Below are positions 1-19,147 of a DNA stretch of 64,000 nucleotides, piece after piece; positions within the stretch are counted from its first letter, which is position 1, and each line of letters begins with the position of its first letter. This DNA comes from Poronia punctata (Eukaryota; Ascomycota; Sordariomycetes; Xylariales; Xylariaceae), in assembly GCA_022579005.1 (NCBI GenBank), contig MU401534.1:94039-158038 (forward strand), read 5' to 3'. A program made the translations under genes and the position numbers. The notes under the pieces are model-generated. The model ran no database searches. It saw nothing but the letters and a program-made list of their open reading frames with translations, and was not told the DNA's origin.

Positions 1-850
1 TGTTCTAGGTCTCTCTGCATTTATGACTCCTTGCTATTCTTAACCGCGGCTACGGAGGACACAACAGGATCTATGCGTTTACAAGGCCCAAACCATTGCC
101 TTTTGACATAAAAGTGGGGTATATGTATTGTGACAAATCGCAGTGCCTAGGTAGTAGGTACCTTATTTTTGTGATAAGAGCCCGCGTTGGAGAAATAACA
201 CGCCAATGGCACGTGGGAATGCTGAGCTAGACGCCGGAGCCTTTACAGGTTGCGGAAGACGCGGCCCATTGCTCGGATACTGTCATACTGACATCTGACA
301 TGCATTGTTGTATGACATTTACAAGCGGCTGGGAATAAAGGAATATGCAGAGGTAGTGGTGTGTACGTTGGTCGCAACCAACATGTTACCATGCCCCATC
401 CCGGGTACTATCTCAGGCCTTGTATTGTACCTATTGGTCAGACGCAGGAGGTCGGTTATCCAGACAGTGCGGTACGGTGTAATATGGACGGTGGATTCTC
501 GTCCAGGGGGGTGGGTGTACCTTTTTTAGCTGTTGGTCTGTTGCCTTGCATTTCTTATTTACGTCCAACACAGAGTTAAGTACTCATACTTATTTTGCTA
601 TTTACCAAGTATGGCAAGTTAATATGTCTTATATACATATAAATTGAGGTAGGTACACTCCATGTCAAGTTTCCATAGTTCCCTGCCAAAGGCAGCCAAC
701 GCAAATGCATCCCTGCACCTGCCCTGCCCTCGCCCTCGCCTCCTAACCTTGGACTTTTATCGTCAACATTCTATTCCGCATCTCCTTACCCTCTCTCGTC
801 TTCTTCTCTCCCGTCCCATTTTGTATGGCCTTGGAACTAACTTGCTACCT
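1..850. other. Intergenic, no gene supported
   Basis: Short overlapping ORFs of 72-74 codons occur around 305-579, but none shows a recognisable domain, signal peptide or splice structure. The stretch just before 851 is pyrimidine-rich, as expected of a fungal 5' leader for the following P450 gene. Confidence 0.5.
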
Positions 851-2562
851 ATGGCTATCCTTCAAATCTTTCTAACCACAGTGCTTTTGGCCGCCCTGCT
901 GACGATCGGAGGTGCCATACGCCGTTTGTTCCTTCACCCCTTGGCTCATATTCCTGGCCCAAGACTCGCCGCTCTCACCTGGTGGTATGAATTCTATTTC
1001 GACGTCATTCAACCTGGTAAATATGTCTTTAAAATCCAGCAGCTGCACAAACAATACGGTAAGGCCAATACGTGCGCAAGTGTAAGTCTACAGCGCAGCA
1101 TCACTGATCTACCTACCTCGCAGGACCAATCATCCGTGTCACCCCGGACGAGATTCACATCTCTGATGTTGGATTTCTCGACACAATCTATGCCCCTTCT
1201 TCGTCCCCGAGAGACAAGTATGAGTACCAACTGAGAACTCTGCGGGTTCCCGGTGGAGTTGGCACTACTGCCAGTCTTGACGCCCATCGCAGACGACGTG
1301 AAGCTCTGGCTCCATTCTTCAGCAAACGCAATGTGACCCTCCTTGAGCCGACGATTACGGAGAAAGTTCAACAGCTTTGTCAATTGCTGTCGAAACATGC
1401 CTCCGAACAGACGCCAGTTAATCTTTCGGATGTCTTCTTCGCCTTCTCCAATGAGTAAGATCTCTTAACATTCGGGACAAAGAATGACCCTCCTAACAGA
1501 GGCTAGTGTTGTCAATAACTTCTTGTTCTCTCAGAGAACAGACGCCCTTTCGGATGAACAGAAAGCGGCCACATTACGCCATAACAGCTACGAGCTCATG
1601 ATGGGAATTCATTTCAACAAGCACTTCCCCTTCATCCCCGACTTCCTAGAATCCCTCCCGGAATTCATCAGCAAGCCTATTATGCCACCTGGATTGCTTG
1701 ATATGCTAGACCTATTTGACGTATGCGTTGCCCTGAGAACTATTGGCATCGTGTTCTAATGCTAAAGACGCAGCGAGTCCGAGCCGAACTGGTAGGCATC
1801 ATCAAAGCCAAAGCTTCTGGGGCCGGTAGCGACTCGTCGAGTGCAAAATCTGTATATCATACTGTGCTCGACAATCCTACTTTGCCCGCACCAGAGAAGG
1901 CTTTACTCCGGCTTGAGCAAGAAGGTGCACTCCTGGTTCTCGCAGGAACCGAATCACCAGCCAAGTCCCTCAACCTGATATTCTACCATCTGCTGGCCAA
2001 TAGACAGATCATGAGCAAGCTACGACAAGAACTCAGCACCGTCGCACAACCAGCGTCGTGGACCCAACTTGAGCGACTGCCATATCTCACCGCGGTCATC
2101 GAGGAAGGTCACCGTCTCTCCTTTGGTGTCACGGCCAGAACGGCACGTATCGCTCGGGAAACACTTATATACAGCCCTACATCTCATGCGGCTTACTCTT
2201 CGAACATTGGAAAGTCGTACAAGATTCCCGCCGGTACTCCCATGAGCACAACGACCTTGAGCGCCCATACCGCGCCGAGTGTTTTCCCCCGCCCATTCGT
2301 CTTCGACCCGGAACGCTGGCTCGGTGACGAGGGCCGCAAGCTCCAGAAATACCACATGTCATTTGGTAAAGGCAGCAGAAAGTGCCTTGGCATCGAGCTG
2401 GCCCGTGCCGAGATGTATCTGGTGACTGCAGCCCTGGTTCAGGGTTTTGACATGAATTTGCGGAAGACTGAGGCGAGCGATGTGGCATTTGCCCATGATT
2501 ATCATGTTTCAATGCCGAGCAGTCGGTTCAAGGGGTTGGAGGCTACGGTGACTGCCCTGTGA
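851..2562 (+). CDS. Cytochrome P450 monooxygenase (trichodiene-oxygenase-like class)
   Basis: Heme-thiolate monooxygenase, probably ER-anchored, oxidising a small molecule. Exons 851-1058, 1124-1454, 1507-1720 and 1774-2562 give 513 residues, normal for the family. The start at 851 begins a hydrophobic anchor (residues ~2-22) followed by the Pro-rich hinge HIPGPRLAA. Exon 2 carries the [11 protein letters not shown] segment typical of fungal P450s near trichodiene oxygenases. The I-helix motif is AGTES, the ExxR pair is in EEGHR, PERW follows, and the heme loop is [10 protein letters not shown] with the Cys ligand. Intron 2 has two possible AG acceptors; only the one ending at 1506 keeps frame and gives the expected ...NDVVNNFLF... 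join. All key residues are present, so it looks functional. It lies 2.8 kb from the RiPP-like cluster and could act with it, but nothing in the sequence proves that. Family assignment is secure; the substrate is unknown. Confidence 0.9.
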
Positions 2563-3715: not shown

Positions 3716-5142
3716 ATGGACGGCCCTCCAGTCATGACAGATTATTATACCACTCCGGCATCAATCATCTTCATCAGCATCTTCTTTCCCATCCTCGGCG
3801 CCACTTGTGTAGCTCTACGTTTCTACACTAGAGCCAAGGCGAAGAGTGCGTTTTGGTGGGACGACTGGCTATGTATTTCAGCGCTGGTATGCACACGCAA
3901 TATATTCCGGTCCGTTCAAAGTACAGGCTAACTAATGCTGGCCAGATTTTCGAGCTTGCGATGGCGGGGCTCCTGATATGGGGTGCTTCGAAGAAGGCGC
4001 TGGGGCGGCATCTTCCTGTCTCAACTGACCCAGGTCCAGACGCATATCTGTTCTTTACCTCGCCCCAACAAATCATTCTGCAGCAAGTATGTATCCGGCG
4101 ATCAAGATAATCGCGCCACTTGGAAGAAAATTTTACCAACGCTTGTTACAGATCCAGTATTTCTTCGACCTCATTGGAGTTTTTGCCTTTGGGTCGCTCA
4201 AGCTCAGCATCCTGTTCTTCTACCGCAAGATCTTCTGCGTCAGCAACCCACACAAGGATGCCTTCAACATCATTACAGCTTCCATGATCGCAATAGTTAT
4301 CGTCTGGACTTTGAGTTTCGGGATCGGGGCCATCTTTCTCTGCGGAGCTCGTCCTGCATACGCGTGGGCGCCCGTGGCTCATGTTGCGGAGCATTGTCCT
4401 GCGCAGCTACAGTTTCTCGAGGCATATGCCATATCCGATTTCATTGTGGATTTTTTTATCTGGTCGCTCCCAATTCCCAAAATCTGGGGGTTGCACATGT
4501 CTGTTAGCAAGAGATTGAGCGTCATCGCCATCTTTCTCGTCGGTGTACTGTAAGTTGTCCGGGCCTTTTCCCTCTCTCCTGGATAGCAGGTTGGAGCTGT
4601 GAATCATGACTAACATGATGGATAGCACAATCGCTGCTTCCGGCGCGAGAATGGCCATCTACATCATTTACGTCGTCAACGCATTTGCCCAATCCGACGG
4701 CGAAAGTACGGATCTCCTCCCCGATCCCCTGCTCACCTAAGAATACTAACATCCGGCAGAAATTATCACCTACCTCCTCTTCTGGACCATGATAGAATGC
4801 GGTCTCGGACTTATGGTAGTATGTCTACCTGCGCTACGTGCCCCCATGCGCACCTTCTTCACTGCCATCTCGCCTGGCTCGCTGATCAGCGGCATCAAAT
4901 CCGCCTTCACAACGCGCTCGCTGAAGAGCGAGGGGAGTCTAGAAGCAGGTTTCTACCGGCTCGATGGTGTCAATCAGTCGCACAAACCGTCGGCTTCTGA
5001 TTGGAGTCGCTATGTGCCGACGGAGGGGGCGCTGCATACGTGTACTTCTGTCGTTGGACCCACCGACTCTGATAATTTGGCGAGACAGGTGAAGCCGATG
5101 AATGGAGCAATTCATGTTCGGAGTGAGATCCGGCAGTATTGA
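3716..5142 (+). CDS. Rhodopsin-domain (PTH11-related) integral membrane protein
   Basis: Seven-helix-type membrane protein of the large fungal family formerly DUF-labelled and now called Fung_rhodopsin, related to Magnaporthe PTH11; a role in surface sensing is known only for some members. Five exons, 3716-3886, 3946-4086, 4152-4549, 4626-4705 and 4760-5142, give 390 residues. Family marks are the first helix (ASIIFISIFFPILGATCVALRF at residues ~12-33), the WWDDWLC motif after it, a YFFDLIG...KLSILFFYRKIF helix pair, and MIECGLGLMVVCLPALRAP in the last exon, followed by a hydrophilic C-terminal tail. A second in-frame ATG at 3734 is an alternative start. It ends 242 bp from the convergent UstYa-like gene. 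Family call is firm; ligand and role cannot be read from sequence. Confidence 0.85.
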
Positions 5143-5383: not shown

Positions 5384-6202
5384 TCACAGCCCCTCAAGAT
5401 CCGCGCAATGGCCAGTAGGCCAACAAGCCGTATGCTCCTTCGCAAACTCCGTCAAAGCATCCCAGTCACGACACAGCCGAAACTGACCATCCCCTGTCAG
5501 CTTCGACTGATAGGGCGCATACAGCGGCGTATCATTCGCGCGGCATTGAATCTCTTGCCGAAGCGCATCGTAGCAATGATTGATATGGATGGCTTTCTCG
5601 TCCACGGACTTGCCTGTCATCAGGTCCTGGATGACTTGCCGCAGGTATATCTGCTCGCACGGTTAGTTTGAATTTTTTTTTTTTTTTTTTGGAAATCCCG
5701 GAGATGGTTTGAGCTGTTACTGGAGGGAGGGGGGTTATTTTGTTGCATACCACGCAGTGCAGCTCGTGAAAGCCTGCAAGTACATAAACCCCCTTCTCCG
5801 CGTCGTCGGGGAAGTCCTCGGCGACAGGGAGGCCAGCGCGTGCGGCCTCGCGGTGCGGAATGGCGACGAACCCGTTGGTGGTGAAGCGGCTCCATGCGAC
5901 GTCCGATATGGATTGGTTCACGTTGCCGTATTCCGTGTAGGTGTGGAACTCTCTCCACGATTTCCCTCGCGAGTATATGCCAGCTTTCAGATCTTTCTTT
6001 TAGTGTCCAATTTTTTGGGGGGGGGGGAGGGGGAGCGTGTCGAAATTTATTTCAACAACTTACTGAAGCCATGGTCGTCGACTGCGAGCTGCAGCCGCCG
6101 GATTTGCGTGTATAGAGAGACGTTGCAGGTGACGAGGAGTAGGCAGAGGAGAACCAGCGGTGTGGGCTGGAGAAGGAATGGGGGACGTCTTGAGGATTCC
6201 AT
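5384..6202 (-). CDS. UstYa-like oxidase (DUF3328), first copy
   Basis: Putative peptide-modifying oxidase. UstYa/UstYb-type proteins cyclise ribosomal peptides in ustiloxin, phomopsin and asperipin pathways and are type II membrane proteins. Exons read on the minus strand are 6202-6064, 5983-5751 and 5650-5384, giving 212 residues, somewhat short but within the family range. The N-terminus has one membrane segment (PLVLLCLLLVTCNVSLY). Exon 2 has the family stretch EYGNVNQSISDVAW...GFVAIP. The two diagnostic HxxHC motifs are HELHC (end of exon 2) and HINHC (exon 3), followed by GDGQFRLCRDWDAL. The only ATG for exon 1 is at 6202. The introns contain long poly-G (6017-6027) and poly-A/T (5671-5690) runs. 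It is divergent from the repeat-peptide gene at 7055, sharing an 850-bp intergenic region with it. Family call is strong; the reaction is inferred. Confidence 0.88.
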
Positions 6203-7054
6203 GGAGTGCTGGTTTTCCCGGTTCGTCGTCGGCGGTGGAGGTCCTTTCAAATTGAATCTGATAATTGACGTCGCTTCAGGGGCCCAGGGGCCAGGAGGGG
6301 TTGTTGCGATAGCTGTTCAGCAGATCATCAGATGCAGGTTCCGACTTTCAAGTTTCGCGGAACTGGGAACCAATTGCAGAAGACATGACATGCGACCGAA
6401 GTAGGTACCCTTTACTTGAGAAACTAGGGCCAACAAACCTGCTCCCGATCTTTATTCCCTGCCAAACGCTCCGTTTTGAGCCTCCAGTGCACGTATACCT
6501 AGGTTACCTACCTTAGGTAAGTAAAAGTAAGTACCCGGTGTCCATGTTACTATAAGGTAGACCGATGCACCTTAGTGGAGTACAAGTGTTTGCCGCGCGC
6601 CAACATGTTACATTGCAGGTCCTCTCGGAATACTTGCAAGTTGCAACCAACAGAGCAAGATTTTTCCATCCACCCTCTTCGGGCTGACATCTACCTAAGG
6701 TAGGTAGGGAGGGTTATTTCAAATGGTTACTTTGCTTTGGCCGTAATACTACCCTTCAACGTCAGCCTCTGGGGGGTTTAAAGTGTAAAGTGCTACCGGG
6801 CCTTTCGGGATCAGGGATTCAGAGTCACCAGACATTGTGTTCTAATGCAACGTTTTGATATAACGTGAGTGAGTACCACCCAGCCAGCCTGTAGGCTGTG
6901 AGGTGTGAAAGACCTATCTATCTATGAATAGTACTTCCTATATTACAGGGTGAGTTTGCACCCATCCGCAAGTCCACTGTCCACATCGGCAAGAAACTCG
7001 ACAACGCAAACTTCAAGCCCGCTCCATCAACCGTCTTCTAACTTACACGTAATC
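6203..7054. other. Shared upstream region of the UstYa-like gene and the precursor peptide gene
   Basis: Divergent intergenic region of about 850 bp between the two starts. It contains several TACCTA/TAGGTA-type blocks (6500-6530, 6690-6710) that are also common elsewhere in the intergenic DNA of this window. No specific regulator site can be named. Confidence 0.5.
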
Positions 7055-7313
7055 ATGAATTTCTTCCTCATCTCCCTTGCCAGTCTTGGCATGATCAGTC
7101 AAGTCGTAGCTCTGCCACGTGCAGGTATGTTGATTGTGCGGGTCCGAATTCGTATCCTTCTTGGCTGACGAGAATCTAGGAGCAAGCGGTATGGCTCCCG
7201 CCGGCGAGGCCTTCAGTCCCAGTGAAGAATCTGTCGATGGTACCCAAATCGCCGAGGGCTGGAAACGTAACGAAGAAGCCGTCGACGGTACTCAGATTGC
7301 CGAGGGCTGGTAA
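7055..7313 (+). CDS. Secreted repeat precursor peptide, dikaritin-type RiPP candidate
   Basis: Candidate ribosomal peptide precursor. Exons 7055-7124 and 7180-7313 give 67 residues. Residues 1-19 form a signal peptide (MNFFLISLASLGMISQVVA). Then come a short linker and two repeats, EESVDGTQIAEGW (residues 39-51) and EEAVDGTQIAEGW (55-67), separated by Lys52-Arg53-Asn54; Lys-Arg is a Kex2 cleavage pair. Over the 30 nt coding VDGTQIAEGW the copies differ at four positions, all silent third bases, which suggests selection on the peptide. It lies between two UstYa-like genes, as expected for a dikaritin cluster. The repeat has no Tyr; Ile and a terminal Trp are the obvious candidates for cross-linking. 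The last codons are followed by TAA that also forms a GTAAGC donor-like string, but no further repeat copy is seen downstream. Alternatives are a Kex2-processed signalling peptide (KEP) or a pheromone-like precursor; the Cys/GQP features of alpha-type pheromones are absent. Confidence 0.75.
7224..7310 (+). repeat. Two 39-bp coding repeats of the precursor peptide
   Basis: Copy 1 is 7224-7262 and copy 2 is 7272-7310, separated by nine bases coding Lys-Arg-Asn. They encode EE-S/A-VDGTQIAEGW. The only amino-acid difference is Ser versus Ala; the remaining base changes are silent third positions. Confidence 0.9.
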
Positions 7314-7616
7314 GCCATCTTCGGCTGTGTAGTTGGAACTTGGGGACGCGGGGATATGATTTCAAAACCGGCATATATATGAGACTGTACGGGTGGCCTG
7401 TATGTCAGGAAGGCCTTCAAACATTTTGCGGAAGGAAGGTACAGTCTTTCGAAGGGGAAAAACAGCATGATTGGGGAGAATTCGGGAAGTGTATGATCTA
7501 TTTGATTTAGTTTTGTTGTGTCTTGGAGCGAATCAAATCTTCATAACTGCTCTGGACAGCTTGACTTCCTCCTCTCTACATACCACACTGTACATTGTCC
7601 GCAACCAAACAAACCC

Positions 7617-8540
7617 TCACAAGACTCCCGATATGCCATCATCGATGATCTCGCAGTGATTGAAATGATCAAACAACGGAACTGGATGATCACCGTCTGC
7701 ATAGCACGCCGTATTCTCTCTCGCCCACTTCTTCCTGCTGTCCCAATCAACACATTTCCGCAACTGCCCATCCCCCGTCTCGTTGCGACCCCAAGTGTAT
7801 AGCAAAGTATCCCCCGAGTTACCGCACATCACATATTGCAACAAACTATCGAAACAATGCATCGAGTGCGGCACTGGTACACTTGGGGTCTTGCCCGAGA
7901 CGAGTTCGGTGAGGGTCTTACGGATGATAGTGAGACAGTGGAGCTGATGATATCTACATAGAAACAAACGTCAACAACTGGTGCTGCGTTTACGAGGGAG
8001 GGGGATGGAGAGAGGAGAGACCGACGCATCGATAATGTAGACACCTTTTGAAGAATCCGAAGGAAGGCTCATGCTGGCTGGGAGATTGTGCTCCGTAGCC
8101 CACGTATGATTGACAGCTACGAATCCAAACGCAGGCACAATTCGATCCCAGGCCGCATCGACAGCGTCCTTGGCTCCCGGGTCTTTGGAGCTGTAGACAC
8201 CGGAGACCCAATGGAATTGTCTCCAGCGCTCATCGTCCGATGTCAGACCTTGTGGATATGAGCTACTATCTCCCTGTCACGGAGTTGACGGACGGCACTT
8301 ACGATAGTCTTGGACCTGTACCCCTGTCCCCCCTCCAAATGGCTTCAGAGAGTGCTCGAACGTGAGGAATGCACACACGATACTGAGACCTAAAATTGCC
8401 AGCTCCCGCCAGCACTTAACCAGGTGCGTGAAGAACCGAGATCCTCGGGCCCTACTTCCAGAAGATGTCTTCTCGCCCGGGTCGTTGTCGTCGCCCAGCA
8501 AGGCGTACCGAGCTGTTGGGAGTCGTAGATTGGGAAACAT
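7617..8540 (-). CDS. UstYa-like oxidase (DUF3328), second copy
   Basis: Second putative peptide-modifying oxidase. Exons on the minus strand are 8540-8303, 8248-8026 and 7953-7617, giving 265 residues, a usual UstYa length. After a hydrophilic N-terminal tail there is one membrane helix (LAILGLSIVCAFLTF, residues ~47-61). Exon 2 contains the ...DAAWDRIVPAFGFVAV family stretch. The split motif is rebuilt at the exon 2/3 junction as GVYIIDAYHQLHC, and the second HxxHC is HSMHC, followed by GDGQLRKCVDW. The exon 2 donor is GTCGGT, a weak site, but it is the only one that keeps frame and restores the motif. It converges with the precursor gene, 304 bp apart. Having two different UstYa-like proteins is typical of ustiloxin-type clusters (UstYa plus UstYb). 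Family firm, reaction inferred. Confidence 0.88.
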
Positions 8541-9992
8541 GATGCTAGAAATAAACCGCCACGCGGCACCTGAAGAAAGGAGGATCCAAGTCTTGCTGAG
8601 GAGACAAGCTGGGATTCGGGCTCACAGAATACGTCCTTGGATAGTCCTTTCGAGACGGTCCTGGTGATGAGGTAGATGGTCCGGGCAGGTACTGTAATTA
8701 GGTGTACATATAGGTACTTTATCTCCAAACCAGGATCCCAATCCTTGGTCTTAGAGATCCATACCGAATACAACCCATCTAGATTCTACTATACCCGATC
8801 TTTACAATTGTGACTGGACTGTTGGTGTACGTGTAGTTATGGTTAGGTCTAGAGGGCACATAGGTCACATCCCCGCGGCGGCACGGTCTTATCTGGTGCA
8901 CGGTCCTAGAGTATCAGCTTGGATGGCCTGGATAGTGCAATACTAAGGACGGAGGGTTTTCTAAAAAAATACAATATACAGGGGCTAAAAGTCATGCACA
9001 TTAGATTCACCGGGGGGGCCGGGTATTTCACGAATCACGAACATCAATAGGGAACCTCTTACCTGTACTCCCTTACTAGGACTTTTTATCTTCTAATTAA
9101 AGGAAAAGGGGCGATATGACTACGACCAACGTGTAAGCACATTTGCCTACCTCTTTATGTACCAATACTTATCTGGGGTTTTTGTCAAGCAAGGCGAGTC
9201 ACTAACCCATAAGGAACAAATAGGCCTAGAGACGAATTCGTTTTAAAAAGCCCTGCTAGGATGCTAGAGATGGATACTTTACTTTCCTATCTTCTGGAAG
9301 AACCATGCATATCATATGCATGTCATATCTCACATTTGGCATTCTACAATGTGGGGTGATTAATGGGATCTAGGTACATAGCTACAGACCAGAAGTCCCC
9401 AATATTGACTGTTGACACATGCAAAGGATTTCGATAATACAGCCTATTTAAGTAAAGGGGGCGTTGGTTTGCCTTGGTTTGCGTTGATTAGTGTGAGTGA
9501 GGGAGGTGTGTTGTTAGCCGTGCTATCAACCGAGCGGCATTTTTGCTACTTAGGTAGGTATGCGAGTGATGTAGTATTATGGCGTTGGCTGTGTTGTTAG
9601 GCATGTTAGTTGCGTAGGTAGGTAAGTAAGTTGGTATGTTGGCTGCGAGGCTAGGATTGTTGGGAACTTGGAACAGGCGAGGTTGGTAGGTAAGGTTATA
9701 GTCACACTAGCGCATGGATTTTCCACCCCTGTTAGGTTATCCAACCGCCAGCCTGCTTCAAATCTCTGGCGAAAACTGGTTGGGTATGTATGTACATACA
9801 TCGGTGTGCAATAGCTGTACTACGAGTACAGTCCCTGGATATATTCTGTGATGGTATTGATGGCATCTCAATTTAACACCGAATAATAAAACTATTTCAG
9901 AATAGAACCAGCATACCGTTAGAAACCCCTGACGAGTTAAATACCAACTGTATTGTCTAGTCAAAGAGTCCTACTGCAATAATTAAAAGATA
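8541..9992. other. Intergenic, no gene supported
   Basis: Only short unrelated ORFs are present. GTAGGTAGGTA-like blocks recur around 9551-9700. Nothing else recognised. Confidence 0.5.
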
Positions 9993-11986: not shown

Positions 11987-13092
11987 TCACTCTCCAATGT
12001 CATCCAGTCCAGTTCCCTCGACGGCAAACAAGTCCTAATTCAGGTTAGAATATTTCTCCCCGGAGGGGGGGCGGCTTCTTAGAAGGTTAGGCATTATAAA
12101 CTCACCATAACGGATTGACGCACGGCACTCTTTGTATCGTGTCCGACCCACTCGGCATAATAGCCATGCCAGACACGGCCGGAAGTTCGATTCAGAATAT
12201 CGCCGACTACCAACTCGCAATACTCGGCCGTTTCTAGTCTCGGCATATCGTCCTGGCCCTGAGCTCTACCAGCCACCTTTCCCTCGATATCCTTGTACAG
12301 CCTGAAATAGGTAGAGAGTCAGCCATGTAACATGTTCACAAGGGCGGGGAGAAGGGATTGTTTTCCTACTTACTACCGTAAAGTTAGCATAAAGCCCCTC
12401 AGGAAACGAAAAGAGTGTAGTTAGGAAGGGGGCGAGACCTTACCGAGTCGGTGGGGAGTTTGAAATCTTCAAAATAAGTCTGGCCTTTAGACTTGACCCC
12501 GCTCGTCACCACTTCCAGGACGTCTACGCCAAAGGGTTCAAGTCCGAGACGCAGCGTCTCGCCAATAACTTCTAAACCAATCTTTGAAGCTGCATATGTA
12601 CCTACTTACAGTCAATATTTCCTTATCCCAAAAAATCGAGAAGATATCAACTTGAAACTTACCCATATACGGGATATTCAGATGTCCAGCCGTAGAAGTG
12701 ATATAAACAGCCAAGCCCTTCGCTTTAATGAGCAAGGGGGAGAATGCCTTGGTGAGAGCAATCGGAGCAATCAGGTTGATCTCGAAAATCTCTCTGACCG
12801 CGTCTAAGTCCTCGTCGAGGATAGGCATGAAGTGATTGCGTCCGGCATTACTGATGAAGCAATCCAGACCTTTTCTGCTCGTACGCTTAACCGCTTCGAC
12901 GGCAGCTTTGATGTCATCGGCTTTGACGACATCAAGCTTCAGAAACGTCACGTTAGGCAGACCCTCGAGATCACTCATTTTGGAAAGATCGCGGGCGGTG
13001 GCGTAGACGTGGAAATCGCGCTGTTGGAGGATGCGGGCTAGGGAGGACCCGATTCCTCCGTTACTGCAGCCGGTTATAAGAGCGGTCTTCAT
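11987..13092 (-). CDS. Short-chain dehydrogenase/reductase, AYR1-like
   Basis: NAD(P)H-dependent reductase of the classical SDR family, closest in pattern to 1-acyl-dihydroxyacetone-phosphate reductases (AYR1). Minus-strand exons are 13092-12663, 12601-12439, 12301-12106 and 12034-11987, giving 278 residues. Motifs are the cofactor loop TGCSNGGIG at residues ~8-16, the NAG motif in FISNAGRN, the catalytic Ser in ITSTAGH, and YAASK (catalytic Tyr and Lys) at the start of exon 2. The exon 2/3 join is awkward: the strong donor GTAAGG after codon Ser (12443) breaks the frame, whereas a weaker AAG/GTCTCG donor five bases later keeps it and adds Val-Arg. Exon 4 adds a short acidic tail. It may belong with the metabolic genes to its left, but 3.4 kb of element-bearing DNA separates them. 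Confidence 0.85.
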
Positions 13093-14586
13093 GTTGGGGT
13101 GGTTTTTTTTTTTTTCCCCCTTTCGCGTGTGGGTGTTAAGTGTCACAGTCTACACTGCCAGGGGGTCCGTAAAGACTTATTGTTATTGCACAAGGAAGGA
13201 AGGTTTCTCTGAGAAGTAAAGGTCTCCTGTATCTACTTATATAGGCGTTTCGGTGTAGACTTGGTCTGTACACGTAGGCACCGAGACCGGAACCGGGACA
13301 GTAAGTGAGTGAAGTTCTTGTTTTACAAGTAGATTGGGAGAATAGAGGAGAGGGAAAAATGGTGATGGGAATAAGGTCATGGTGCAGCCTTTATAGGTAA
13401 CCAACCCTGTTCGTTTTCCGGGAGCCTACGTACCTATCGACTAACCTAACTGTATATACAAAACACTTGGAGAGGGGTAAACCCGGAATCCAACAGAAAA
13501 ATTTGATCCCAGGATCAGGGTAACGACGCCCATTTCATGCCAAATTATAGTAGGCTGACGATAGAGCCGACAGTTCGTTCTCAACTTTTAGGACGTTTTA
13601 TTGTGTTAGGTGCACCCCTTGGGTCGCATGATATACATGTTTTTTTATATAATGATGAGTTGCTCTAACGGGTAGGTGGACTTTACATAATTTACAATGG
13701 TGTGAGTTTAGGAAAACGAACAGTCGGCTCTATAGTCCGCCATATCGAGGCATATCTAAATTACCTAATGATTGGAAGAAGCACATGCAGATTGGAGATT
13801 TGGATTTTATCTACCCTTGAGGCTAACAAATCCTCTCCAACTTACAGCTTAGTCCTACTGTGTACCTATTTAATATCTTCAAGGGAAACATACCAAAGTA
13901 TTCCCAGAGATCTATAGGAATAGCAAGAGTTCATCGGCTATTATTACATTTGTGCTTGGCCAAAACCAAAAAGGAGAAAAGTAGGAGGGAATCAGGAATA
14001 GCAACAGGAACGCATTACTTTCAGCAGTTGAACAAGATTGACGATATCTATTGCGTGCGTGGTATTTCGGGCCTATAAACTCTGCTGCTGGATACACAAT
14101 ACCGAAACTTGCCGAGGGGTGACTCGGCTTTATATAACCACATTTGTGGCATTGTGACATTGTGACACATTCCGATCGGTCTGCCATATTCATATTAATG
14201 GCCCGGAAAAGGCTTACTTGGGCAAGGCGAGACTCAGCAAACTCAAGTAAGGTATATATACTGACCTGAGGGTGGTGAATAAATAAGCTGTACACAACGC
14301 GGTCACGTTATGAGGTCGAGGTGACGATGGACTCGTAGTCTCTGACATGTTTGACAAGAGAAGTGAATCAGTTTGTTATACCCAGCTCTAAAGGGCCGAG
14401 CCGTACAATGTCTATAAAGCAAGACAGATAATCCCCATCCATCTCTAGAGAAAAGTTGTCCTAAAACCAAGACAAAACCTGCCCCCTATTATTGATGGGC
14501 CCTTATTGATTTAACTTGGAAACAACATCAAAAAATACCTCCCTATCATAAGAACCTACATAACCCCCTAAACAAACAAACAAACA
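13093..14586. other. Intergenic, no gene supported
   Basis: Contains a poly-T run at 13107-13116 just upstream of the reductase gene. No recognisable gene or repeat element. Confidence 0.5.
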
Positions 14587-14856
14587 ATGAAATCCATCAT
14601 CGTATTCGTCTACCTCTCGGCAACGGCTCTCGCCTGCGGAAACGGGGCATACAGATGTAAACATCCCAACCAGACCGTCGCCGTCGAATCCGACGCCACG
14701 CAAGGAATCTGCGACCACATCGGTGCCGAGACATGCTGGTGTTACTCGCTCGCGGAGGATTACTGCGATCCCTGGGGGCAGAATATTAGAGAGTTTCAGA
14801 AGTTGTGCGAGGAACGGGGTGATGAGTGGCATTGGGTTGAGTGTGTGGGGGTATAA
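14587..14856 (+). CDS. Small secreted cysteine-rich protein (effector-like)
   Basis: Unidentified single-exon gene of 89 residues. Residues 1-16 (MKSIIVFVYLSATALA) form a clear signal peptide. The mature part is acidic and has eight Cys (ACGNG, YRC, GIC, TCWC, DYC, KLC, VEC), an even number consistent with four disulfides. The leader AAACAAACAAACAATG is a good fungal start context. Small size, secretion and even Cys count fit an effector candidate or a secreted cysteine-rich peptide; no family was recognised. No function is assigned. Confidence 0.7.
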   Translation: MKSIIVFVYLSATALACGNGAYRCKHPNQTVAVESDATQGICDHIGAETCWCYSLAEDYCDPWGQNIREFQKLCEERGDEWHWVECVGV

Positions 14857-15894: not shown

Positions 15895-16850
15895 TGTTTT
15901 CCCCCTATTTACTGAAATACCTATACAGACGTAGGAAAGGCATCCTCGGAATTATATATTTTTGCATAATTAGCAAGCGACTGGTCTACAGCTAAACATC
16001 TCATTCGTCACGAGAAAAGGGAAAAAACACTCTTTGGATCGAAACACGTAGTGAATGATCATACATACAGTAGTGAGTCAGTTGATTTACCATTTCTTGT
16101 AACTTTCCCTTACTGAGTCCGTTTCGGATGAGGATGTCAAGAATATATGTCTGTCCCCGGCTTGTCACAGTTCAATATATGTAACCCTTTTAGACATACA
16201 ATGTCGGGTTTCCCACATTGGCTATGTTCTACTTTTACCATCTAGTGTTTTGGGATAGTATGCAGTTGTGGTCCGTCATATAGTTTTCTGTCGGACAGGA
16301 CTCGTTATTCGCTGATCTCTTTCTTCCACATCATATTTAGTGTACAATCGCATTCATCACGTTTTCTGCCACTCATGGTAATTAGGATGTTCAAACTGGA
16401 ATTCTACGATATCTTGGGTTTCTAGCCACTTGATTTCCAAGTCGATTTCTGTCGAGAATCCGAGCCATGGGGCTTGAATCAAGCCACACCAAGTTGGAGA
16501 CAGTTAGGTTACGGACTCAAAAGTCGGTACCGGGTAGGTAAGCGCCGCATCAATGACAAATACATCTGTGCCTCTTATTTTGCCTAGTATGAAACGACGG
16601 GATAGTGGGACCTACCGGTATCGCGCACCGGAAGAGATGTAGTAATATGGGGCTTCTCATGCATGACCATTGAGGGGACCAACATTTAAATGTGCTAGGC
16701 ATTGTAAGTTATTATCACCTTCTACCAAGACCTCCGTCTCTTGAAGTACCGTCAATCAATAACTTTTATTAGAATCGGGCCTCGTTCAAAAACCCTACAC
16801 TTGAAAGTTGATAATCTGACCCTTTCAGAAGCAAAGCCCAGGTGCTAGCA
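15895..16850. other. Intergenic, upstream of the alpha/beta hydrolase gene
   Basis: No gene recognised. Serves as the upstream region of the hydrolase gene at 16851. Confidence 0.45.
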
Positions 16851-17900
16851 ATGTCGCTCGTCAAGCTCGATCCGGAGTGGGCGGAGCTGTGGGCGCTCTT
16901 TTCGCAAATGCCCAAGCCCGTCTACGACGACGTCTACGGCCTACGCAATGTTCTAAAGGTGGCCCTCACGGCTGCTAATCAGGCATTTCCAGCCCCAGAG
17001 GGTGTCAAGGAGACGAAACACACATACCCTTCGCTAGATGGTACCAACATTGACATCCATCAGTTCGTGCCCCCTTCAGCGTCAACTGCGTCGCAGGCTT
17101 CGCAGCGAGCCATTGTCTATGCTTTCGGCGGTGGAATGATAGGAGGCAGCGTCGAAATTTGGCGGACGAGTATCAAGGATCTAGCAGCCAGCACCGGATC
17201 GCCCGTCTTTGCGGTGCAGTACCGGCTAGCTCCGGAACACCCGGCACCGGCAGCGGTTGAGGATATCTACTCGGCCGTGCTATGGCTGCAATCAGAAGCC
17301 GCCAGATTCGACATCGACCCGAAGCGCGTCGTTCTCTTCGGAGGAAGCGCGGGTGGGGGTCTCGCGGCTGGAGCGGCCCTCTTGGCCCGTGATAGAGGGC
17401 TTCCGTACCCGATAGCGGCCATGTTACTTTATTACCCGATGCTTGATGACCGAGCTGAATTGCCCGATGACCATCCTATGCACCCCTATCTAACATATAC
17501 AAAACGCTCCAACGACATGGCCTGGGAAGCTGTCCTAGGTAGAAAGAGAGGTGTGTGCCATGAGTCCATGACATATAGACTATGCCTAGCCAAGATCCAC
17601 TGCATGAGTGTGCTGACTTGGAAACTACTAGCTGATCGAACGGACGAGAACGTTCCCATCTACGTTGCTCCCGCGAGGGCCAAAGACTTGAGCGGACTGC
17701 CTGACACATTCATCGATATCGGCGGTGTGGACATATTCAGGGACGAGTCTATCGCGTTCGCGGCGAAACTAGCAGCGGACGGCGTCTTCGTCGAGTTCCA
17801 CCTTTATCCCGGCGTCCCTCATGGATTTGACAACTCCAGGCAAATGCGTGTTGCGCAGCAAGCGGTATCAAATCGGATTAATTTTGTGTCGAGATACTAA
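16851..17900 (+). CDS. Alpha/beta hydrolase, hormone-sensitive-lipase-like (AB hydrolase 3)
   Basis: Esterase-fold hydrolase. Exons 16851-17550 and 17632-17900 give 322 residues. Family marks are the oxyanion region AFGGGMIGGS, the YRLAPEHP motif, nucleophile Ser in GGSAGG, Asp in DIGGVDIFRDE and His in PHGF, so the catalytic triad is complete. The usual HGGG is FGGG here: Phe replaces His, which is atypical. The 81-nt segment 17551-17631 starts GTGTGT, ends CTAG and contains no in-frame stop, so it could be spliced out or retained (adding 27 residues). Conserved order in the family favours splicing. The ATG at 16851 is the only start near the domain. Substrate unknown; a role in secondary metabolism is possible but not shown. 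Confidence 0.85.
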   Translation: MSLVKLDPEWAELWALFSQMPKPVYDDVYGLRNVLKVALTAANQAFPAPEGVKETKHTYPSLDGTNIDIHQFVPPSASTASQASQRAIVYAFGGGMIGGSVEIWRTSIKDLAASTGSPVFAVQYRLAPEHPAPAAVEDIYSAVLWLQSEAARFDIDPKRVVLFGGSAGGGLAAGAALLARDRGLPYPIAAMLLYYPMLDDRAELPDDHPMHPYLTYTKRSNDMAWEAVLGRKRGVCHESMTYRLCLAKIHCMSVLTWKLLADRTDENVPIYVAPARAKDLSGLPDTFIDIGGVDIFRDESIAFAAKLAADGVFVEFHLYPGVPHGFDNSRQMRVAQQAVSNRINFVSRY

Positions 17901-18686
17901 TCTGAGCTTGTTTCGAGTTGCTTGGAATTCGATAGGTCGGATTTACAAGAGAACAAAAGCCCCCCCGAAATGCATTTCATACCTGTCTCGGCGTCGGAGT
18001 GCGAGTATATTCACTTTCTGGTAGATACTGGAAGCTGTCCACAAAGTGCTGTGCAACCATCCCCACTTCCAAATATGGGTTTGATGTCTGCGATAGAAAC
18101 ACCAACAGAGTCAATATCAGGGCAAGAGGAACCTCGATACCAACATAGTCTTGAAAACTGACCGGTTCGGGCAGAGAATTAGGCGGGGCTCGCATCATAC
18201 GTGCCAGTGTAGCTGCATTTGCCAGACGATCAATTAATTAATCAATCTGTCAATAAGACAAAGTGCAAACAATCTTTGATTTTTCCTTTCCAAGTCCTTG
18301 TGATGACTGTAACTGTAACTGTACAACCCTCTTGTAACAAAATTTACATTGAAAACCGCCTGCGAGAACACTCCGCAGTTAATAACAAGGAGCAAACAAA
18401 CGGGATGATCAGTGTCACCATCCACCATTTGTTTGCGAAAGATCAAGATGCTGAAACGACGATCGGCGCGCTGTCTCGTTCCTGCCAAAAATAACCATTG
18501 CGGTGTAGATCACCAGATGAGGCGTCATTAGATAAATAAGTAGCCACGACTCGCGGGGCCTCTTTCCAACTTTGAACTTTACACTGTACTGGACTACCTA
18601 GATAATTGGATCTGGTATCAGCTCAATCATTTAACTTTCTCTCGATAACTCCACTCGCAAAAAAATCACAATCACGCCTCATCAAA
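17901..18686. other. Intergenic, no gene supported
   Basis: Short ORFs on both strands without recognisable features. Nothing else seen. Confidence 0.5.
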
Positions 18687-19147
18687 ATGCTGTTCATGAT
18701 GCGGATAAGCGCCTTGCTCGCTCTCATGTCCAGCCACCTCGTGCACAGCTGGAACGCAACCATATATGAATCAGCCAATTGCACCGGAAGTCGGGTACGT
18801 TTCTCTCACATGATAGGGGGGAATAATACTAAGATGATTATTACTAGTACGTGATTTATCCGACCGCCGAGCACACCAAGTACTTCGAGATGGAAGGCTC
18901 TTTCGGAGCCGGGATGGAGTGCACGTACCACGGCACCAGGAACAACGGTACAGCTACGGGCACCGCCTGCAACGAGCAGTTCCCCGTGGCCCGATCCGTC
19001 TTCAGCGATGTCGGCTCCTGCAACGATTACTCGGGGCCCCACTCGAGCGGCGAGCGCGTGGCTCGCCAGACAGAGGGTCAGTGCATGACGACGGATTTCG
19101 ACATTCGCTCTGTCGTCTGCTTCGACCGGCATCACGAAACTAAATAG
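18687..19147 (+). CDS. Small secreted cysteine-containing protein
   Basis: Unidentified. Exons 18687-18794 and 18848-19147 give 135 residues. The N-terminus is a signal peptide (core ISALLALMSSHLVHS, cleavage near residue 22). The mature protein begins WNATIYESANCTG and has six Cys (NCTG, MECTY, TACNE, GSCND, GQCMT, VVCFD) and several N-glycosylation sequons (NAT, NCT, NGT). The 53-nt intron GTACGT...CTAG keeps phase 0, and reading through it would lose the C-terminal Cys set. The pattern fits a secreted effector-type or extracellular protein. No family named. Confidence 0.7.

Follow-up and report, generated by a model that had tools for sequence, protein, structure and literature searches.

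A candidate dikaritin-type peptide locus with a conserved, tryptophan-ending core in Poronia punctata

What does a small gene for a repeated peptide make when it lies between two UstYa-like genes? The locus that raises this question belongs to Poronia punctata, a dung fungus of the Xylariales. It was found in a stretch of 64,000 nucleotides (the window), which covers bases 94039-158038 of contig MU401534.1 (C81). The contig has 158038 bases, in an assembly of 45 Mb. We read it as a dikaritin-type locus, coding for a ribosomally synthesised and post-translationally modified peptide (RiPP) that would be modified by the UstYa proteins, and we give this reading a probability of just under 0.8. The dikaritin-type assignment is well supported: both flanking proteins match PF11807, the precursor has repeats of the Kex2 type, and other fungi carry the same unit. 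The coordinates of all features are collected in Table 1.

As for the precursor, its intron is given in Table 1, and the spliced protein is identical, in 67 of 67 residues, to an annotated P. punctata hypothetical protein (P0003). The N-terminus is hydrophobic (MNFFLISLASLGMISQVVAL, by a crude hydropathy screen), as expected of a signal peptide for the endoplasmic reticulum. The two copies follow the form EE[S/A]VDGTQIAEGW, with 13 residues each and Lys-Arg between them. Their codons differ by four synonymous changes and one non-synonymous change (Ser/Ala), which speaks for a real locus. A further exon after GGTAAG at 7309 was considered and rejected, and the stop at 7311 was kept, because by eye the downstream sequence holds no repeat. 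A Pfam scan of the precursor gave no family at E 0.1, and no search for pheromone motifs was made.

In terms of the flanking genes, UstYa A and UstYa B lie on the strand opposite to the precursor, one on each side, and all three reading frames are intact. The proteins score 87.5 bits (A) and 75.1 bits (B) against PF11807, where the cut-off is 25 bits. UstYa A contains the motifs HELHC and HINHC, and UstYa B contains HQLHC and HSMHC. The six HxxHC positions are invariant across 26 aligned homologues, out of 72 returned. For P0017, no solved relative was found at E 1. The initial annotation had described a 67-residue precursor with two Lys-Arg-separated copies, flanked by two DUF3328/UstYa-like genes with both motifs in each; this description stands at the coordinates given, and the PF11807 comparison that it proposed is positive for both proteins.

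Table 1. Features of the locus, its neighbours and its paralogues. Positions are those of the window unless another locus is named.
Feature	Position	Strand	Details
Precursor gene: signal peptide, leader and two cores	7055..7313	+	2 exons (7055-7124, 7180-7310), TAA stop 7311-7313, 67 aa; gene model and homologues
Phase-1 intron, GTATGT...TAG	7125..7179	+	after the 70-nt signal-peptide exon
Repeat 1, SEESVDGTQIAEGW	7221..7262	+	no Kex2 site ahead of the copy
Lys-Arg, predicted Kex2 site	7263..7268	+	KR after every internal complete repeat in 16 proteins
Repeat 2, NEEAVDGTQIAEGW	7269..7310	+	terminates at the stop codon
UstYa A, putative copper oxidase	5384..6202	-	PF11807; 212 aa, 3 exons (6202-6064, 5983-5751, 5650-5387), stop reaching 5384
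UstYa B, putative copper oxidase	7617..8540	-	PF11807; 265 aa, 3 exons (8540-8303, 8248-8026, 7953-7620), stop reaching 7617
Fungal-rhodopsin (PF20684) gene, multi-exon	3716..5142	+	143 bits against a cut-off of 27; junctions approximate
Paralogous cluster, rhodopsin/UstYa/precursor/UstYa	L026, C197:37200-47199		7-repeat precursor
Paralogous cluster, same order	L030, C4:210700-220699		two copies of SDDEAVVYKW[DE]G; found by eye
Third UstYa gene	L010 ~8330-9350, 0.65-1.7 kb before window base 1	-	PF11807 145.5 bits; approximate model
Secreted protein, ~214 aa	L010 7010-7795		beside the third UstYa; absent from the rest of the genome
Cytochrome P450, possible tailoring partner, unproven	662..2562	+	PF00067 157.7 bits; model approximate
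Short-chain dehydrogenase frame, cluster link unproven	12538..13146	-	PF00106 79.3 bits
Alpha/beta hydrolase, cluster link unproven	16842..17900	+	PF07859 179.8 bits

A search for the precursor in other fungi, also suggested by the initial annotation, returned 16 proteins out of 19 candidates (E 1.7e-40 to 3.2e-14), which are the window's own and 15 homologues. They come from Neopestalotiopsis, Gnomoniopsis, Hypoxylon, Xylaria, Paramyrothecium, Stromatinia, Seiridium and further contigs. In the first aligned core the residues D, G, Q, E, G and W are invariant in all 16 rows. Every one of the 35 complete repeats has Trp as its last residue; next comes KR or the C-terminus of the protein. The residue at n-4 to this Trp is Ile in 34 of the repeats and Val in one. 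Complete copies number two or three in 15 of the 16 proteins and one in P0013, while P0012 ends within a fourth copy. The first repeat is preceded by KR in 12 of the 15 other precursors, by ER in P0006 and P0013, and by neither in P0012. Across Xylariales, Hypocreales and Helotiales, the Tyr-free, Trp-ending core varies only a little.

Homologues were also returned for UstYa A (25, of 169 candidates) and UstYa B (47, of 446 candidates). In Stromatinia cepivora (Helotiales) the three genes have consecutive tags, with B as EAF04_008275, the precursor as 008276 and A as 008277. The A protein of Paramyrothecium (Hypocreales) is 91% identical to that of Poronia (Xylariales) and its B protein 86%. 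This closeness across orders is unusual and perhaps points to horizontal spread. The UstYa A of Seiridium is 85% identical to the Poronia protein, and its record has an extra stretch.

Taken together, the product of the gene set is very probably a short secreted peptide that is modified by enzymes and ends in Trp. The precursor would enter the secretory route, where membrane-anchored UstYa A and UstYa B would oxidise the core, presumably at a dicopper site by analogy with the published UstY enzymes, which form crosslinks in an oxygen-dependent manner (PMC12186524). Kex2 would cut after Lys-Arg and Kex1 would trim these two residues, so that Glu-Gly-Trp would form the C-terminus of the peptide. 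As for the chemistry, the likeliest would be a crosslink from the C-terminal Trp to the beta-branched residue at n-4 (Ile, once Val), comparable to that of victorin. The Trp-Ile crosslink itself is a tentative proposal by analogy, at clearly less than even odds. The rhodopsin-family protein encoded next to UstYa A may sense, export or help mature the peptide.

Several points weigh against this reading. The locus is known here from genes, motifs and conservation. UstYa-type enzymes are also reported to hydroxylate, chlorinate or desaturate (PMC12048977, PMC10512285), so that a ring is not implied by their presence. The structure model of UstYa A has a mean predicted local distance difference test score (pLDDT) of 55, too weak for use. 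Among the 20 matches to tyrosinase (PF00264) in the genome, none is on C81. Since no Lys-Arg precedes the first Poronia copy, clean release by Kex2 may be limited to the second. As for linkage in other fungi, only Stromatinia has all three genes by consecutive tags. In favour of linkage, one gene separates the B and A tags in Sclerotinia borealis (8305/8307) and Aspergillus tanneri (008658/008660). Matching contig size across records, as a proxy for the same contig, also speaks for it: of the 25 A hits, 11 occur together with B (Sclerotinia and several Aspergillus among others), the precursor occurs with A in four cases (including Seiridium and one 2800-base contig) and with B in two, and all three genes occur together in Paramyrothecium and Stromatinia. 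Against it, the other 14 A hits have no B hit on a same-sized contig, perhaps in part due to short or clustered records.

The core is not known to match those of ustiloxin, phomopsin, asperipin, epichloecyclin or victorin. Whether the locus is called a dikaritin depends on the definition. Broadly, a dikaritin is a Kex2-processed protein (KEP) precursor cyclised by UstYa homologues (PMC10512285), and here we find repeated cores with a Kex2 site and flanking UstYa genes with two HxxHC motifs. Under the narrow definition, which PMC12048977 cites from Ding et al., the cluster also holds a tyrosinase, a methyltransferase and a transporter or peptidase, and the tyrosinase is lacking at C81. None of the other three was found among nine scanned proteins, although no search aimed at these families was made. 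Five dikaritins had been reported as of 2022 (PMC10512285). The survey of Umemura 2020 (PMC7329392) finds UstYa genes beside 22% of Kex2-repeat precursors, and some UstYa-linked precursors carry Trp or His-His instead of Tyr, so a Tyr-free core is not without precedent. In the Le Marquer survey (PMC6339444), the QIAEGW core is not among the conserved repeat peptides named in the available text. Four strings of the core do not occur in the literature searched; supplementary tables were outside this scope, and the precursor family may therefore sit unnamed in a survey table. Of the claim for a new dikaritin-type cluster, then, the type holds up well and the core strings are absent from that literature, but the precursor gene was already annotated, as "hypothetical". 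What the sequences point to is a real, conserved RiPP locus, a variant with a Trp-ending and Tyr-free core.

The unit also has relatives within the Poronia genome. On contigs C197 and C4 the gene order is that of C81, namely rhodopsin, UstYa, precursor and UstYa. At all three loci the rhodopsin and precursor genes share one strand and both UstYa genes lie on the other. The orientation is alike at C197 and C4, and C81 keeps the order with every strand flipped, so that rhodopsin and UstYa A are convergent there and divergent at the other two. In the C197 precursor the repeats are separated by RR and end in VHISEGF or VQVSEGF, with the stop right after SEGF. In both the QIAEGW and the [IV]SEGF families, n-4 is beta-branched, n-2 is Glu, n-1 is Gly and the C-terminal residue is aromatic. 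The gene order is different at C74, where one UstYa gene is accompanied by a rhodopsin gene and a secreted single-copy candidate.

A repeat scan of 14 other UstYa regions found clear Kex2 repeats near UstYa genes on C197, C5, C350, C29 and C44. These include DAAYREGAWG in 11 copies (L027, C5), SGDAVPWNAVGSE in ten (L029, C350), five copies similar to QFVGTYVPAGDEGEAAE (L034, C29) and a GEAIVPWKEGV family (L035, C44). Hits at L024 and L033 were discarded as low-complexity, and a single weak hit came from 44 kb of the rest of the window. For a phase-1 intron following the signal peptide, the junction is exact in the C81, C197 and C4 precursors and one of several options for C350, C29 and C44; C5 lacks such an intron. 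Being common to other precursors, it is no mark of the C81 locus.

The UstYa tree has 34 sequences, with 20 of the 72 homologues and 14 UstYa genes of the Poronia genome. It does not include C117, C455, C29, C124 or the second C4 gene, and several of its rows are partial. UstYa A and UstYa B each form a single group (99/93). The paralogues of C197 and C74 group with UstYa A (97/93), a placement that may be false, given a program warning that long branches meet, including at the C197-C74 join. Seven other UstYa genes of the genome lie beyond one branch (96/95); they include the third UstYa of C81, which is separate from A and B.

The rhodopsin-family gene adjoins UstYa A and is probably linked to the trio. 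With 50% identity (residues 95-235), it matches an Aspergillus copy that the annotation fuses to a relative of UstYa B. One UstYa B homologue, P0072 (A. niger), is a single annotated protein that carries both PF20684 and PF11807; in another, P0084 (A. awamori), PF20684 is followed by a stretch similar to UstYa B. This joint annotation suggests that the two genes adjoin in those fungi. For A. niger and A. awamori, no UstYa A was among the 25 hits and no precursor hit was returned. We take the term "seven-helix" for this neighbour from the family name; its structure model, built from two sequences, has a mean pLDDT of 39 and is too weak for use.

Could this gene be a chance neighbour of the trio? 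The great majority of rhodopsin loci in the genome, 69 of 73, lie more than 5 kb from UstYa genes, and in the Aspergillus niger group only a relative of UstYa B stands beside rhodopsin. The flipped strands of C81 relative to C197 and C4 also fit with chance. A query with the window protein ranks C70 and C98, which have no HxxHC motif in the surrounding 10 kb, ahead of C4 and C74. Against these observations stand the adjoining A. awamori and A. niger copies and the query made with part of P0084, where the window gene ranks first among 25 exon matches in the Poronia genome (152.9 bits), followed by C197 (73.2 bits), C4 (73.1) and C74 (57), and all four loci lie less than 3 kb from UstYa genes. 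Furthermore, four rhodopsin loci lie no more than 5 kb from one of the 15 UstYa clusters, where 0.28 are expected (Poisson P 2e-4), assuming random placement and using 26 of 27 UstYa matches, with one C66 exon match omitted. On balance we regard chance as unlikely. A clean UstYa-linked rhodopsin subfamily is not shown, since the Aspergillus query favours it and the reverse query does not. A bolder idea, which we consider quite improbable, is that C81, C197, C4 and perhaps C74 are parallel cassettes of ligand, enzyme and receptor with diverged cores (QIAEGW, [IV]SEGF, DDEAVVYKW), each a self-sensing module where the UstYa-modified ribosomal peptide is encoded with its own seven-helix receptor. 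In that case, modified RiPPs would serve fungi as hormones too, besides being toxins. The receptors that perceive Kex2-repeat peptides are posed as an open question (PMC6339444), and the literature searched describes no link from UstYa to rhodopsins or G protein-coupled receptors (GPCRs); the one GPCR listed there is in a predicted Trichoderma RiPP region without a UstYa gene. The locus makes two ideas directly testable: that UstYa proteins crosslink Trp, and that a fungal RiPP has a receptor as its partner.

The remaining rivals concern the peptide. UstYa A and B may modify it without closing a ring, with Ile, Glu or Trp hydroxylated, halogenated or dehydrogenated. The published activities given above speak for this, as does a core without Tyr, the crosslinked residue of ustiloxins, phomopsins and asperipin (PMC7329392). 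The n-4 beta-branched residue and the C-terminal aromatic, kept in both core families, fit a side-chain crosslink, without proving it, and we see the ring-free outcome as unlikely. It is very unlikely that the product is an unmodified linear hormone or pheromone and that the UstYa genes serve something else. Near-fixed Kex2-repeat peptides do resemble pheromones, and a rhodopsin-family gene adjoins, but precursors flanked by UstYa genes recur, and in Umemura 2020 (PMC7329392) pheromone-type precursors lack DUF3328 (UstYa) neighbours, with three exceptions. We give least credence to a decaying locus that makes nothing in Poronia. There are just two copies, the first without its Lys-Arg, which would suit decay; the three open frames are intact and synonymous change dominates between the copies. 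The dikaritin-type reading is the one we retain.

In terms of the wider neighbourhood, the initial annotation was right about the trio and missed the adjoining rhodopsin gene, the third UstYa outside the window and the paralogous loci. The P450 (851), reductase (11987) and hydrolase (16851) that it offered as tailoring partners do match Pfam families, and nothing was found that ties them to the peptide; other genomes were not searched for them. Two small proteins with a hydrophobic start and several cysteines are encoded at 14587-14856, with no Pfam match over the cut-off, and at about 18680-19147.

The secreted protein in L010, beside the third UstYa, contains DDATQIASGYRC, and EESEPYDDATQIASGYRC in it is close to the core motif. 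The pattern D[GA]TQIAxG[WY] and the looser TQIAxG occur three times each in 45 Mb, and not at all in a reversed control. The three occurrences are the two precursor repeats and this protein, 10 kb away. Both patterns were built after the protein had been seen, and the looser one is expected four to five times by chance (own arithmetic). Of 20000 shuffles, 50 score as high, and two unrelated frames among 2109 reach 33 against its 34. Its two weak matches (E 0.0007 and 0.0012), with no stretch significant alone, were taken as chance. Its role as an ancestor or second substrate was set aside as a lead only.

Finally, the locus can be placed among known systems. Plant lyciumin-type burpitides combine a copper oxidase, a ribosomal peptide and a C-terminal Trp, as the Poronia locus would, and their enzyme family is other than UstYa. 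Like alpha-pheromone-type repeat proteins, the Poronia precursor has secreted repeats, KR spacers and a conserved peptide; unlike them, it has UstYa genes on both sides. A GPCR, of the PTH11 type, is listed in a predicted RiPP cluster in Trichoderma reesei (putative cluster 55, PMC7099791) much as the rhodopsin-family gene is present at C81, although there it lies near the far end of 22 genes and, in the text available, no UstYa is listed and it is not discussed as a partner. In victorin the C-terminal Phe is joined to an internal Leu (PMC9233826); a C-terminal aromatic is common to both, with Trp in place of Phe in Poronia. Compared by description, as was victorin, the dikaritins ustiloxin, phomopsin and asperipin-2a differ from the Poronia locus, which has a Tyr-free core, no tyrosinase on the contig and a rhodopsin neighbour; with them it shares the signal peptide, the Kex2-separated repeats and UstYa genes with two HxxHC motifs.

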